NCBI RefSeq assembly: GCF_001006325.2
Contig: NZ_LBIA02000001.1
Coordinates: 3,225,501 to 3,289,500 of the forward strand
Reading direction: 5' to 3'
Length of the DNA stretch: 64,000 nt
From: Afipia massiliensis
GTDB lineage: Bacteria; Pseudomonadota; Alphaproteobacteria; Rhizobiales; Xanthobacteraceae
Numbering within the stretch: the stretch's first letter is position 1; the number at the start of each line of letters is the position of its first letter. Under the pieces are notes generated by a model. The model saw only the letters and a list, made by a program, of their open reading frames with translations. It had not been told where the DNA came from and did not search any database. Positions 2,694 to 32,870 of this stretch are shown here, piece after piece. Both the position numbers and the translations under genes were made by a program.

Positions 2694-3601
2694 GGTTGAT
2701 TCTTCTCGGGCCGCCGGGGGCGGGCAAGGGAACGCAGGCGCAACGACTGATTCACAAGCACGGTATCGTTCAGCTCTCCACCGGAGAGATGTTGCGTGCC
2801 GCGGTTGCAGCCGGAACGCCCGTCGGCCTCAAGGCGAAGGACATTATGGCCAGCGGCGCGCTGGTGCCGGATGAAGTCGTGGTCGGAATCATCGCCGATC
2901 GCATCGAAGAACCGGACGCGAAGAAGGGTTTTATCCTCGACGGTTTTCCGCGCACCGTGCCGCAGGCGCAGGCGCTGGACGATCTGCTCAAGAGGAAGCA
3001 CCTCAAGCTCGACGCCGTGGTCGAACTGCGTGTGAACGAGAGTGCGCTGCTCGAGCGTGTCGAAACCCGTGTCGCGCAGATGCGCGAGCGCGGCGAAGAA
3101 GTTCGCATCGACGATACGCCGGAGGTGCTGTCGAAGCGCCTGGCCAACTACCGCGCCCAGACCGAGCCGCTGGTTCACTACTATTCGGAGAAGCGCAAGC
3201 TCATCACCGTCGACGGCATGATGACCATCGAGCAGGTGACGGTGGCCATCAACCGGGTTCTGTCCGCGCTGGAAGCGGCTGATTCGGCGGCCAAGGCCGC
3301 GAAGAAAACCGCCCGGAAGACCGCCAAGCCGGGCAAGGCTGCTGGCAAGACTCCGGCAAAGGAGGCCAAGAACGCGGCTAAGAAGGCCGCCAGGAAGGCT
3401 GCCAAGGCACCCGCCAAGAAGGTCAAGAAGACCAAAAAGGCCGCGAAACCGGCCAGTAAGACTGTTAAGGGCGGTAAAAAGACCGCTGCGAAGGCCAAAA
3501 GCCGGACCTCCGGAACCAAGGCCGCGAAGACCCGAAAAGTGGCCAAAAAGGCCACTAAAAAGCGCGCTAAAGCGGTCAAACGGTTGACGAAACGCCGCTG
3601 A
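2690..3601 (+). CDS. adk: Adenylate kinase with a long Lys/Ala-rich C-terminal tail
   Basis: Adk converts ATP and AMP to two ADP in the cytoplasm. Residues 1-198 are a normal short-LID adenylate kinase: P-loop [10 protein letters not shown] (7-16), [10 protein letters not shown] (80-89) and the short LID near residues 125-165. Residues about 200-303 are an added tail made almost only of Lys, Ala, Arg, Thr and Pro, with repeated KKAA and AKKA units, resembling histone H1 C-termini. Family members are usually about 190-220 residues, so roughly 100 residues are extra. The tail is in frame with unchanged base composition and ends at a clean stop, so it is probably real. It may bind nucleic acid or ribosomes, which is an inference. 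Confidence 0.95.
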
Positions 3602-28948: not shown

Positions 28949-29560
28949 CTAGCCCGTGCGCCGGACGCGCGCCGTGGTGCCCGCGACGATCTGCATGGTC
29001 ACGCCAAGTAGCCAGCCGCATGCCAGCGCCACTGTGATCGCCGCCGTCGGGTCGGAATCGGTGACGATGGAATAGACCGAAATGAAGGCTGCGGTTGCGG
29101 CGAGGAATGTTCCGGCCGCGCTCAGCAGTTCGACGGGGTCCATCGGCTGCATATCTTCGCCGGTGAGGCGCGCCTGCGGCAGCCGGCCAGTGCGATGCGG
29201 TGGGACATCGATGCCGAGATAGAAGCCGATGGCGCCAAGGACCATCAGGGTGAGACTCATGGTCACGGAACCCAGGAGTTCGACCCGCGCGCTCGAGACA
29301 TGGGCCGCGACGAACAGGCCGCATGACGCGCCCGCCATGGACAGGCCGAGCCGTTCGATCACATGGGCGCATCTGCTGGTGCGGGAACGGTAGGCACGAT
29401 GGGCGATGATGCTGTCTGCCATCTTTGTCCACTCACGGAACAGTAAATCGTTCCCGTCATCGCCAAGGAAATCGTCGAGGAAATCGTCAAGGAAATCGCC
29501 GTTGATGTAGGCGCGGCGCTGCCGGTTCGAAAGATACTCCTTCGATACCTTCCCCGTCAC
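28949..29560 (-). CDS. Four-helix membrane protein with an acidic N-terminal repeat, unknown function
   Basis: The 203-residue frame has four hydrophobic segments from residue 70 on (GLSMAGASCGLFVAAHV, LLGSVTMSLTLMVLGAIGFY, LLSAAGTFLAATAAFISVYS, AAITVALACGWLLGVTMQIV). Residues 21-37 contain DFLDDFLDDFLGDD, encoded by three 12-base tandem units (29464-29499). Translation could instead start at the internal ATG 29422 (MADSIIAHRAYRSRTSRCAH), which would leave out the repeat. No family is recognised. Confidence 0.65.
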   Translation of the reverse strand: MTGKVSKEYLSNRQRRAYINGDFLDDFLDDFLGDDGNDLLFREWTKMADSIIAHRAYRSRTSRCAHVIERLGLSMAGASCGLFVAAHVSSARVELLGSVTMSLTLMVLGAIGFYLGIDVPPHRTGRLPQARLTGEDMQPMDPVELLSAAGTFLAATAAFISVYSIVTDSDPTAAITVALACGWLLGVTMQIVAGTTARVRRTG

Positions 29561-29574
29561 GCTTGACTTATCTC

Positions 29575-30056
29575 GTCACTAGGATTATATTCCCTTTTGT
29601 CTCGCCCCGTCATGAGGGGCGTTTCGCGATCGTCACGATACGCGGGGCGGGATGCGGTGGCCGCGTGCGGCGCTCGGTTTGCGGCTGTGAAAAGCACCGC
29701 GAACGACGACGGCGCAGCAGCGGACGGCCAAAGTCGTGTGGTCCCGGCGTCGCGGTGCTGACGTCGAAAGGAGCGAGAGGGTCTGTCGCCCCAGTGGCGG
29801 TGGAACACACTCACGATCCAGAACGGTGGCGAAAGAGCCGTCCACCGGGGAGAGCGCGAACCAGGCCGTTCCAACCATTGCGTGCGGAACGCCGGATGTG
29901 TCCGGCGCAACCGTGGTGACGACACTCGTGTGCTTTCTACCTTTGCACACGGGGCTGCGGATGCGTCGAGCATCCGGCGTTCCGCGCGCCCTCAATTGGG
30001 CGAAGCGATGTAAGACTTCGGGCGCCCCCGCGCCGTCACAACAACAGGGGTGATGA
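29575..30056. repeat. Long non-coding segment resembling a multicopy family element
   Basis: About 480 bases without a credible gene. It begins with TCTCGCCCCGTCATGAGGGG + CGTTTCGCGATCGTCACGAT, contains GTGTGGTCCCGGCGTCGCGG and matching inverted pieces (CGGAACGCCGGATG / CATCCGGCGTTCCG near 29889-29980), and ends near CACAACAACAGGGGTGATGA. I recall near-identical gene-free segments recurring in Bradyrhizobium-type genomes, so I read it as a repeated element, not as genes; this is not verified here. Frames on either strand give Arg/Pro-rich nonsense. Confidence 0.6.
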
Positions 30057-30113
30057 TGGCTGTTTGAAATTTGAATCGGGAGACGTGAAGCGCGATCACG
30101 CAACACTTCAGAT

Positions 30114-30239
30114 GTCGTCCCCGCGCAGGCGGGGACCCATAACCACCGAACATTATGATGACGAAGGAAAGAGTTGCCCCGCTATCGCGGTAACATGATG
30201 GCTTTGGGAGTATGGGTCCCCGCCTTCGCGGGGACGACG
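30114..30239. repeat. Palindromic repeat, family B, copy 3
   Basis: GTCGTCCCCGCGCAGGCGGG + GACCCATAACCACCGAAC and TATGGGTCCCCGCCTTCGCG + GGGACGAC form the outer arms, with a GCCCCGCTATCGCGGTAAC insert. It is related to the copies at 59568 and 60414. Confidence 0.88.
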
Positions 30240-30243
30240 ACAA

Positions 30244-30270
30244 GAAAAACCCCGCCGAAGCGGGGTTTGC
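30244..30270 (-). terminator. Rho-independent terminator for the small Cys-rich protein gene
   Basis: On the minus strand: AAACCCCGC, TTCG loop, GCGGGGTTTTTC. It lies 18 bases after the stop of the gene at 30288. Confidence 0.85.
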
Positions 30271-30287: not shown

Positions 30288-30545
30288 TCACCACCAGGTA
30301 CGGCAGACGCGGCCAGGACCCCAGTAACGGCACTTGCGCACCACCGGCAGGCGAACCACGACCACGCGGCCACGGTTGACGACACAGCGGCCATACGGGC
30401 CACGATGGAAGCCGCGGCCGCAACCGCCGGCGACCTGGATGACATCGGCGCTGATGCCGGGCGCGGGAGCTGCAGGCATGGCGTTGGCGGCGCTGAAACC
30501 GGCCGCGGAGGCTGCGAGAAGTGCTGCTGCGAACAACGTTTTCAT
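30288..30545 (-). CDS. Small exported GCG-type four-Cys protein
   Basis: The 85-residue protein has a signal peptide (MKTLFAAALLAASAAGFSAA, cleavage near NAM). Its mature part reads QVAGGCGRGFHRGPYGRC, then a basic Val-rich segment and a second Cys pair in RKCRYWGPGRVC. The GCGxGFHRxxxGxC opening is the motif of the GCG_CRPN-type small proteins. The gene at 31722 encodes a relative with the same four-Cys spacing style. ATG 30545 has a GAGGAAAG site upstream. Function unknown; secretion and disulfides are inferred. Confidence 0.8.
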   Translation of the reverse strand: MKTLFAAALLAASAAGFSAANAMPAAPAPGISADVIQVAGGCGRGFHRGPYGRCVVNRGRVVVVRLPVVRKCRYWGPGRVCRTWW

Positions 30546-30834
30546 GGGTGTCTTTCCTCGGATCATCATGTTGCAAATTTATGTTGCGACGGCCCGGCCG
30601 GGGCCGGCCAGGAAGCCGGAATCAGATCGCCGGCATCGGCCGGCGCGGGACATTATTCTTCCGAAGATTGACACAAGATGAACCGATTGTGATCGCCGAC
30701 GCAGGTCAGTGGCCGCATTGGCTGCAGAGGAAAGCAGCTTGGCCACGGAGACGAATCCGGAATCCCGTCGGTTCAGTTTCCATTCATGCGCGCTGCGGAA
30801 TTCTTGATGCGAACAGAACATCGGAGGACGCATC
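30546..30834. promoter_or_regulatory. Divergent intergenic region between a Cys-rich gene and the first Tat-type gene
   Basis: These 289 bases hold no gene and include a GGCCCGGCCGGGGCCGGCC + AGGAAGCCGG palindromic patch (30592-30618) and AT-rich patches on each side. The likely promoters of both flanking genes lie here. A CGGAGGA site precedes ATG 30835. Confidence 0.5.
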
Positions 30835-31188
30835 ATGGATCGCCGCGGTTTTCTCAAGTTCGCGTTTGGTGTCGCCGCCGCCGGTGCGGCAACTGTTACC
30901 GCCGCGCGCGCCGCGCCGCTTGCGCCGCAAGTGCTCACCGACAAACCGCTCGAGCCGGATCAACTTCCGCAGAACGCCGTCGCCAACGACGACGATCTGA
31001 ACGAGGCACAGGTCGAGCAGGTCCGGTGGGGACGCCGCCGCGGCTGGGGCCGTCGTCGCTGGGGATGGCGCCGCCGCCGCTACTGGGGCTTTCGCCGCCG
31101 AAGGTACTGGCGCCGCCGCAGGTACTGGGGATGGCGTCGCCGCCGCCGCTACTATCGTCGTCGGTATTGGCGTCGCCGTTACTGGTGA
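30835..31188 (+). CDS. Twin-arginine-signal protein with an Arg/Trp/Tyr-rich polycationic tail
   Basis: The 117-residue protein starts MDRRGFLKFAFGVAAAGAAT, a twin-arginine-like signal with RRGFLK. After a short acidic linker ending DDDLNEAQVEQVRW, residues about 66-117 consist almost only of Arg, Trp, Tyr and Gly in units like RRRRYW and GWRRRR. The linker is shared with the next gene (DDLAGAELEQVHW), which carries a His/Arg tail instead. Charge and aromaticity suggest binding to nucleic acid, LPS or polysaccharide, or an antimicrobial or metal role. All of these are inferences. Confidence 0.8.
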   Translation: MDRRGFLKFAFGVAAAGAATVTAARAAPLAPQVLTDKPLEPDQLPQNAVANDDDLNEAQVEQVRWGRRRGWGRRRWGWRRRRYWGFRRRRYWRRRRYWGWRRRRRYYRRRYWRRRYW

Positions 31189-31352
31189 TGAGCTACCGCA
31201 TCATTTGTTGAGGGAATGATCGCGCTGTCATTCGTGCGTAGAGAGGCAACGGGTCGCATGCAGGAAACGGAACAATTTGGTTTCACACCGCGTTCGTTGA
31301 TCTTGCGGGACAGTCGTGCCGTGAAACGTTCGCTTCACAAGGAGAAGAATTG

Positions 31353-31649
31353 ATGGAACGTCGTGATTTTCTGAAGTTTGCGTTCGGCTTCGCCGCCGGC
31401 GCAGGTGCAATTGTCGCCGCGGCATCAGCGGCGAGTGCTGCGCCGATGCTGTCCCCGCATCATGATTTGATGAACGGCCCGAAGCCGGAGCCTGACGTGA
31501 CGGCCAAGCCCGCGGTTGCGGATCAGGACGATCTTGCGGGTGCCGAACTTGAGCAGGTGCATTGGCGCCATCGCCATCACCGCCGCCATCATCGCCGCTA
31601 TCACCGGCATCACCGCCGCCACTACCGTCGGCATTACCGCCGCTGGTAA
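31353..31649 (+). CDS. Twin-arginine-signal protein with a His/Arg-rich tail
   Basis: The 98-residue protein starts MERRDFLKFAFGFAAGAGAI, a twin-arginine-like signal very close to that of the gene 164 bases upstream. The linker DQDDLAGAELEQVHW matches its neighbour, but the tail from about residue 72 is His/Arg/Tyr-rich (RHRHHRRHHRRYHRHHRRHY). Such a tail could bind Ni, Zn or Cu or polyanions. ATG 31353 is preferred to the adjacent TTG 31350 because of an AAGGAGAAG site upstream. A terminator follows. Confidence 0.8.
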   Translation: MERRDFLKFAFGFAAGAGAIVAAASAASAAPMLSPHHDLMNGPKPEPDVTAKPAVADQDDLAGAELEQVHWRHRHHRRHHRRYHRHHRRHYRRHYRRW

Positions 31650-31721: not shown

Positions 31722-31985
31722 TTACTCGCGCCGGCACTTGCCGGCGAGGTTGCGCCGGTATCCGACCTGACATTTGCGGGCGAACAGCCGCATCAGTCTC
31801 GGTCCTTCCGGCTGCGGGCGGCAGACTCCGCTTGAGAGGCGATGAAATCCGACGCCGCATCCGTCCTTCACCGCCACCACATCGCCGCGCGCGGCGGCGG
31901 CCAGCGAGGCGATCGGCATGGCCTGCGCGGCTCCCGCGCCGAGCATCGCACCTGCGAGGACGACTGCCGCACAAAACGCCTTCAT
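31722..31985 (-). CDS. Small exported GCG-type four-Cys protein, relative of the gene at 30288
   Basis: The 87-residue protein has a signal peptide (MKAFCAAVVLAGAMLGAGAA, cleavage near AQAM). The mature part contains VKDGCGVGFHRLSSGVCRPQ, the GCG_CRPN-type motif, followed by a basic stretch with two more Cys (RKCQVGYRRNLAGKC). It lies just past the convergent Tat-type gene and its terminator, so the two Cys-rich genes bracket the two polycationic genes. It ends in KCRRE. Function unknown. Confidence 0.8.
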   Translation of the reverse strand: MKAFCAAVVLAGAMLGAGAAQAMPIASLAAAARGDVVAVKDGCGVGFHRLSSGVCRPQPEGPRLMRLFARKCQVGYRRNLAGKCRRE

Positions 31986-32003: not shown

Positions 32004-32870
32004 TCAGAGCTTCGGCGCGTTGCCGAGCGGGGTCTTGTTCAGGGCTTCGTTCTTCTCGGCAGCGAAAGCGTCCGCGTCGATCTTCGCCGAGCTGATGATT
32101 TGCTTGAAGTCAATCAGCGTGAACTCAGTCTTGCTGACCCGGTTCGGCGTGATGCCCGGCGAGATCTCGACTGAGACGAGCGCGTCGCAATTGGCAGCCT
32201 TGGCCTCAATGACAAGCTTGTCGAGCGTCTTCTCCAGCGCTTGCGCACGTTTTAGTTCCGCGACGCAGCTACCGCGTCCGTTAGCATCATTGAGCGCGAC
32301 AGCGACCTTCGGATTAATCGGCCCGTTGAGCGCTTCGAGCGCGGTGGCAGGGGTATACTTCTGCTTGACCGACATCAGCTTGCCGCCCTTGTAGAAATAG
32401 TACATGCGGCCGTCGCCGATCGCCGTGGGCGCACCATACTTCGTGGTCACGCGCTCGATCATCTCGGCCTTCGATGGCTGCTTGTCGGCAGAAAAGCCGA
32501 GCAGGCGCGAGATGTAATAGGCGCGGTTGGCGCTCGCGGGCGAGGAGAAAACCGCCAGCATCGATTCACCAGGATGGGTGCTGGTCGGGGCGAGGGTAAA
32601 CTTCATCGCGGTGACATAAGTCACGTTGGTGCCGCCGAACTTCTGCTGCGCGGTTTCCGGCTTCACGCCCGGCAGATCTTTCAGGTAGGCCTCGAAGATC
32701 GGCGCGGCCTTGCTGCCTTCGATGTTGCTCGACAGGCCGACAATGTCAGGCTGCAGCTTCGCGGAAAATGCTGTTTCGGGTGACTTGGGCCTGATTTCGT
32801 AAGCCCAGCCGGTGGCCGGAGCCGTGACCGAAAAAAGCGCGACAAATGCGACTAACCCACTGCGAAACAT
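32004..32870 (-). CDS. Exported protein of unknown function
   Basis: The 288-residue protein has a signal peptide (MFRSGLVAFVALFSVTAPAT, cleavage near GWA-Y). The body is mixed alpha/beta with TKYGAPTAIGDGRMYYFYKG, which resembles periplasmic proteins that read out a short substrate, but no known domain is recognised. There are two Cys in the C-terminal half (GRGSCVAEL and AANCDAL). Its 3' end lies 18 bases before the small Cys-rich gene on the same strand, so the two may be co-transcribed. Confidence 0.75.
   Translation of the reverse strand: MFRSGLVAFVALFSVTAPATGWAYEIRPKSPETAFSAKLQPDIVGLSSNIEGSKAAPIFEAYLKDLPGVKPETAQQKFGGTNVTYVTAMKFTLAPTSTHPGESMLAVFSSPASANRAYYISRLLGFSADKQPSKAEMIERVTTKYGAPTAIGDGRMYYFYKGGKLMSVKQKYTPATALEALNGPINPKVAVALNDANGRGSCVAELKRAQALEKTLDKLVIEAKAANCDALVSVEISPGITPNRVSKTEFTLIDFKQIISSAKIDADAFAAEKNEALNKTPLGNAPKL

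Follow-up and report, generated by a model that had tools for sequence, protein, structure and literature searches.

Two adjacent small genes in the 64,000-nucleotide stretch of DNA analysed here (the window) raise the question of why two proteins that begin alike, with a twin-arginine signal and a common linker, should end in basic tails of different composition. The initial annotation had described this arrangement from the sequence and proposed that the paired tails were a selected design; both open reading frames are present as it claimed, with their common signal and linker and their differing tails.

A family of Tat-signal proteins with arginine-rich tails

The first gene (30835-31188, plus strand, ATG start), recognized from its reading frame and its homologues and with orthologues elsewhere in the genus, encodes a Tat-signal protein of 117 amino acids with an Arg/Trp/Tyr tail. 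Its signal spans approximately residues 1-27 (MDRRGFLKFAFG) and is followed by an acidic linker (DDLNEAQVEQVRW), up to EQVRW (residue 65), and by a 52-residue tail of R, W, Y and G. The second gene (31353-31649, plus strand), recognized in the same way and from its position in the tree, encodes a paralogous Tat-signal protein of 98 amino acids with a His/Arg tail, comprising the signal MERRDFLKFAFG, a linker (DDLAGAELEQVHW) up to EQVHW (residue 71) and a 27-residue tail of R, H and Y. Its ATG, at 31353, is preceded by AAGGAG, and the listed reading frame begins one codon upstream, at a TTG. These are the only two copies of the tail family in the genome, the next-best matches being weak and corresponding to other reading frames. 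Judged from their sequences, the two proteins are paralogues of one undescribed family.

The Tat signal was the sole part of both proteins recognized in a scan of Pfam and NCBIfam; the product of 30835-31188 scored above the cut-off for TIGR01409 (Tat signal) and that of 31353-31649 scored 16.3 versus 16.7. Residues R3, R4 and F6 of the RRxFLK twin-arginine signal are invariant in all 23 divergent rows of the alignment and the genome encodes TatC (E 3.5e-69). The signal sequence and the presence of TatC predict that both proteins are exported by Tat. Likewise, the envelope location proposed initially gains support from the invariant RRxFLK, from an acidic linker that follows the hydrophobic stretch, from TatC and from the OmpR/PhoB-type repeat described below. 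The suggestion that the proteins would be exported folded or with a cofactor found no such backing: the AlphaFold model, derived from a shallow alignment of four rows, had a mean pLDDT of 56, a pTM of 0.17 and no usable fold, and therefore gives no indication that a folded domain or a cofactor is exported. A structure search found no related solved structures. Small unstructured hydrophilic proteins can be Tat cargo, and such export is unusual though known; the family bears on the movement by Tat of short, unstructured and extremely cationic chains.

Homologues were found in 26 of the 29 genomes of the genus Afipia and in 44 of the 201 related genomes that were searched, the weakest of these 44 being doubtful, and most genomes with the family contain a single copy. 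Profile searches extended it to a second genus (g25) of the same taxonomic family, with at least 14 genomes, and gave weaker matches in other families of the order, which correspond to Tat proteins with R/Y/W tails. Among 289 genomes drawn from the class, at E 1e-6, the only match was the genome under study, and a contig scan with peptide patterns matched only Afipia massiliensis. The host group comprises Bradyrhizobium-like bacteria, including soil bacteria and, probably, root-nodule symbionts.

Besides the signal residues, M1, G12, A24, A26, A48, E61 and V63 are invariant in the 23 divergent rows, and L7, A10, A15, P28 and W65 are nearly so. The linker has a negative net charge in 46 of 46 proteins (−1 to −7), and these 46 homologues retain the RR pair, the linker junction (E-Q-V-x-W) and the tail chemistry, a resemblance that exceeds chance. 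This search for the linker beside Arg- or His-rich tails in other genomes had been put forward as a check on the initial annotation, and the homologues do keep both the linker and the charge of the tail. A literature search on the tail family or on the GCG_CRPN proteins encoded next to it (see below) retrieved nothing. In all, the pair belongs to a new family, whose signal and chemistry are of known kinds and which is undescribed in Pfam, NCBIfam and the literature searched; it defines an unnamed, broadly conserved group of proteins with a strongly selected Arg/aromatic tail.

Selection and shifting chemistry of the tails

The tails of the 46 proteins (1644 residues; 15–53 residues per tail) consist of Arg (50%), Trp (15%), His (12.5%), Tyr (11%) and Gly (7%); Lys and Cys are absent and acidic residues practically so, and in some homologues His makes up as much as 50% of the tail. 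In codon comparisons of homologous pairs, the pooled pN/pS was 0.107 for the tails and 0.179 for the signal plus linker, and pS was close to 0.45 in each region; the pairs share at least 80% identity, a cut that lowers both ratios, and are not independent. The first tail showed eight synonymous and no non-synonymous differences in the comparison with Afipia massiliensis, and Arg is encoded in the tails by a mixture of synonymous codons. Such a low ratio at that pS indicates that the tails are selected as protein and that slippage alone is inadequate to explain them; the codon data thus point to purifying selection on the tails. Together with the retention of the linker and of positive charge across homologues, this agrees with the original description of a conserved module joined to a low-complexity tail whose charge stays fixed.

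We examined the history of the tails in a tree of the signal plus linker, which, with 70 columns, is poorly resolved. The product of 30835-31188 falls inside a well-supported clade of proteins with R/W/Y tails, and that of 31353-31649 in a different group, mostly His-rich with some R-rich members. Labels of H-type or R-type change at least seven times on this tree, three of them forced by well-supported branches, and the H-, W- and Y-rich tails merge into one another by degrees. Tree placement and label changes together suggest an old duplication plus repeated shifts in tail chemistry, with positive charge kept constant. The idea of paired tails as a selected design thus holds in part, because the tail is under selection and its charge is constant; nevertheless, the two chemistries do not form a fixed pair, since they switch repeatedly between clades and most genomes have a single copy.

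Neighbouring genes and candidate control sites

Two genes for GCG_CRPN prefix-to-repeats proteins (NF047412), both on the minus strand, flank the tail genes and are the only two matches to this family in the genome. The first (30288-30545; E 1.4e-11), whose start we set at a conserved MKTLF, encodes a protein with a Sec-type signal and four Cys; the second (31722-31985; E 5.5e-10) lies 19 bases downstream of a minus-strand gene (32004-32870) for a conserved 288-residue protein with a signal-like N-terminus, which lacks Pfam matches and is a syntenic neighbour in most relatives. Tail and GCG_CRPN genes are within 3 kb of each other in 20 of the 24 genomes holding both families and at all 14 loci of g25, and at least six genomes contain tail genes without a GCG gene. 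The locus is syntenic throughout the genus and into the taxonomic family, in a setting that includes a carboxylase-like gene and one for a membrane protein of glycine-transporter fold (PF03458), with conserved genes on the other side; it is vertically inherited. Its recurrent neighbours include no modification enzyme, protease, immunity gene or dedicated transporter.

Three other features of the window were observed: extragenic palindrome-like repeats at 30040-30260, in which spurious reading frames read SPRRRGPI or VPAFAGTT; a minus-strand reading frame at 28949-29560 with a triplication of DDFLDDFLDDFLG near its N-terminus and no Pfam match; and a plus-strand Lys/Ala-rich reading frame at 3170-3601, of the histone-H1-like C-terminal type. 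Elsewhere, distant Tat-signal homologues at loci L094, L096, L097 and L102 have Arg-rich tails with Cys pairs (for instance, ...EIEKVQYRRRYYGRRYYRRPAVRWRPARRRVCRVTRNRWGRTRRVCYFR in L096), which resemble the end of GCG_CRPN proteins, KCRYWGPGRRVCRTWW, and the two families may share a tail design.

Direct repeats in an 11-bp register are typical of regulators of the OmpR/PhoB family. Upstream of 30835-31188 there is a direct repeat of this register, TTCA-N7-TTCA (GTTCAGTTTCCATTCATG; 30771-30788, plus strand), a candidate OmpR/PhoB-type operator, and upstream of 31353-31649 another direct repeat (TTCACACCGCGTTCG; 31282-31296, plus strand) overlaps an EcfG-promoter-like element, GGAAC-N17-CGTT (31269-31294, plus strand). 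A copy of the TTCA-N7-TTCA repeat with one mismatch (ATCACAATCGGTTCA; 30679-30693, minus strand) precedes the GCG_CRPN gene at 30288-30545. Of 61 distinct regions upstream of tail genes, 55 contain the pattern TTCA-N7-TTC[AG], a count that overstates independence because many of the regions are related by descent, versus 0.7% of random stretches from the same loci. Nearly all the repeats lie 59–90 bases before the start codon, and their seven spacer bases are variable. Among 37 GCG_CRPN genes, 18 are also preceded by the repeat (background 1.1%) and around half lack it; GCG_CRPN and tail genes have separate promoters.

In the whole genome, TTCA-N7-TTCA occurs at only four places, near chance, and hence no regulon is inferred. 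One of the four lies between a parC-like gene and a divergent gene (L076 1064-1354, near genome position 3388012) for a secreted protein with ...TEEVRLVCTTRRVGHRWVKSCRDV and a His/Arg/Pro-rich tail. CenR, an envelope regulator of Rhodobacter sphaeroides, binds TGA-N8-TGA direct repeats, at sites such as TCACGCAATCTTTAT (PMC9275681). This kind of site, a direct repeat of 11-bp register before envelope genes (PMC9275681), resembles TCACACCGCGTTCGT, but the second half-site is TTCA here and mostly TGA for CenR. The tolQ gene, a known CenR target elsewhere, has no such repeat in the genome studied; with the match inexact and the tolQ control negative, the repeat is not assigned to CenR or to any other named regulator.

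EcfG-like elements (GGAAC-N15/18-[CG]GTT, compared with GGAAC-N16/17-CGTT for the general-stress promoter) were present in 15 of the 61 upstream regions (background 0.6%), clustered at −75 to −88. They mainly precede the His-tail paralogue and its kin, and most of them overlap the TTCA repeat. Over the whole genome, however, this pattern shows no enrichment and is rarer than its reversed control, and an EcfG regulon is not favoured as the main control.

Possible functions and comparison with known systems

The reading that we favour, tentatively and short of an even chance, is that of envelope-stress-controlled, Tat-exported polycationic-aromatic proteins that would bind anionic envelope material, a function we infer from sequence features. 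An OmpR-family response regulator would switch the genes on, perhaps with the general stress sigma factor EcfG also acting on the His-tail paralogue, and Tat would carry the short unstructured chain through the inner membrane. The acidic linker could favour a tail-out orientation and prevent the tail from sticking too early. Arg with Trp or Tyr binds phosphate- or carboxylate-bearing polymers and membranes. Having reached the periplasm or the cell surface, the tail might coat or cross-link anionic material, such as lipid A/core carboxylates or phosphates, phospholipid or surface polysaccharide, through multivalent electrostatic and cation-pi binding, which in His-rich tails would become pH- or metal-dependent. 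The Cys-containing GCG_CRPN protein would act in the same envelope response. A bolder proposal, which we regard as unlikely, is a Tat-dependent two-part envelope coat, in which the Arg/aromatic polycation and its Cys-containing GCG_CRPN partner would be co-induced and, outside the inner membrane, would build a layer with a protective or signalling role (or give off Arg/Trp peptides directed to a host or to competitors), with the His/Trp/Tyr chemistry of the tail tuned by lineage.

Alternatively, the proteins could be precursors of secreted cationic antimicrobial-like peptides: the acidic linker would be a neutralising pro-segment, a protease would cut near E-Q/N-V-x-W, and the freed Arg/Trp or His/Arg tail would attack competitors or meet a host. 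We consider this unlikely; an acidic pro-segment with an Arg/Trp-rich tail is indeed a usual layout of such precursors and the junction is sharply conserved, but the recurrent genes of the locus include no protease, exporter or immunity gene, no outer-membrane exit route was seen, and single copies inherited vertically over whole genera are unlike the patchy bacteriocins. A periplasmic protein that binds metal (or heme), for which the His-rich paralogue would serve as sink or chaperone, would fit the tails with up to 50% His and the metalloproteins that Tat often carries. Nevertheless, Arg is the constant residue, many homologues have few or no His and no Cys, and metal transporters are not among the recurrent genes of the locus; relatives of an ArsR-like HTH gene (32967) appear in 9 of 23 compared loci. 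We regard this function as unlikely. Also improbable is a role in binding extracellular or periplasmic nucleic acids, be it biofilm DNA, DNA uptake or DNA shielding: Arg/aromatic repeats readily bind nucleic acids, but the locus holds no pointers to DNA uptake or biofilm, and the export signal is kept without exception in the aligned set.

A RiPP precursor, with aromatic/Arg repeats that a radical SAM enzyme would crosslink, in the manner of GrrA-type systems, is very improbable and was rejected; the signal, the acidic leader-like part and the periodic aromatic repeats resemble some repeat-type precursors, but the genome's 17 matches to radical SAM proteins are all more than 400 kb from the pair and no recurring neighbour looks like a modification enzyme. 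Finally, it is scarcely credible that the tails are unselected products of repeat drift, a GC-rich expansion of CGC-like triplets read as a coding frame: their length varies and the codons for Arg, His, Tyr and Trp form a chain of single steps, but Leu, Ser, Cys and Gln hardly occur, although their codons too are a single step from CGN, and the tail pN/pS with pS at 0.46 and the mixed Arg codons contradict a frame or repeat artefact.

The pair can also be compared with known systems. TIGR02811 (formate dehydrogenase region TAT target) also comprises very short Tat-signal proteins and gives weak, signal-only matches to the pair (14.7 and 17.3 bits), but these are far under its 48.45-bit cut-off and no formate dehydrogenase genes were seen at the locus. 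Arg/Trp- or His-rich antimicrobial precursors, of the cathelicidin or histatin type, have an acidic part followed by a cationic aromatic tail. The pair is like them by analogy, in layout, with no sequence kinship seen; it is bacterial, has a Tat signal and lacks processing or immunity genes. The GCG_CRPN proteins are likewise small and secreted, occur in the same bacteria and consist of Arg/aromatic-rich sequence behind a short conserved part, and their genes are adjacent to the tail genes and share the upstream repeat. Unlike the tail family, however, they have a different signal (no RRxFLK), conserved Cys and no E-Q-V-x-W linker, and the proteins of the pair do not match NF047412 (cut-off 24 bits), which is matched only by the flanking genes. 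Position and a common control site tie the tail family to the orphan GCG_CRPN family, and provide a testable context for both.
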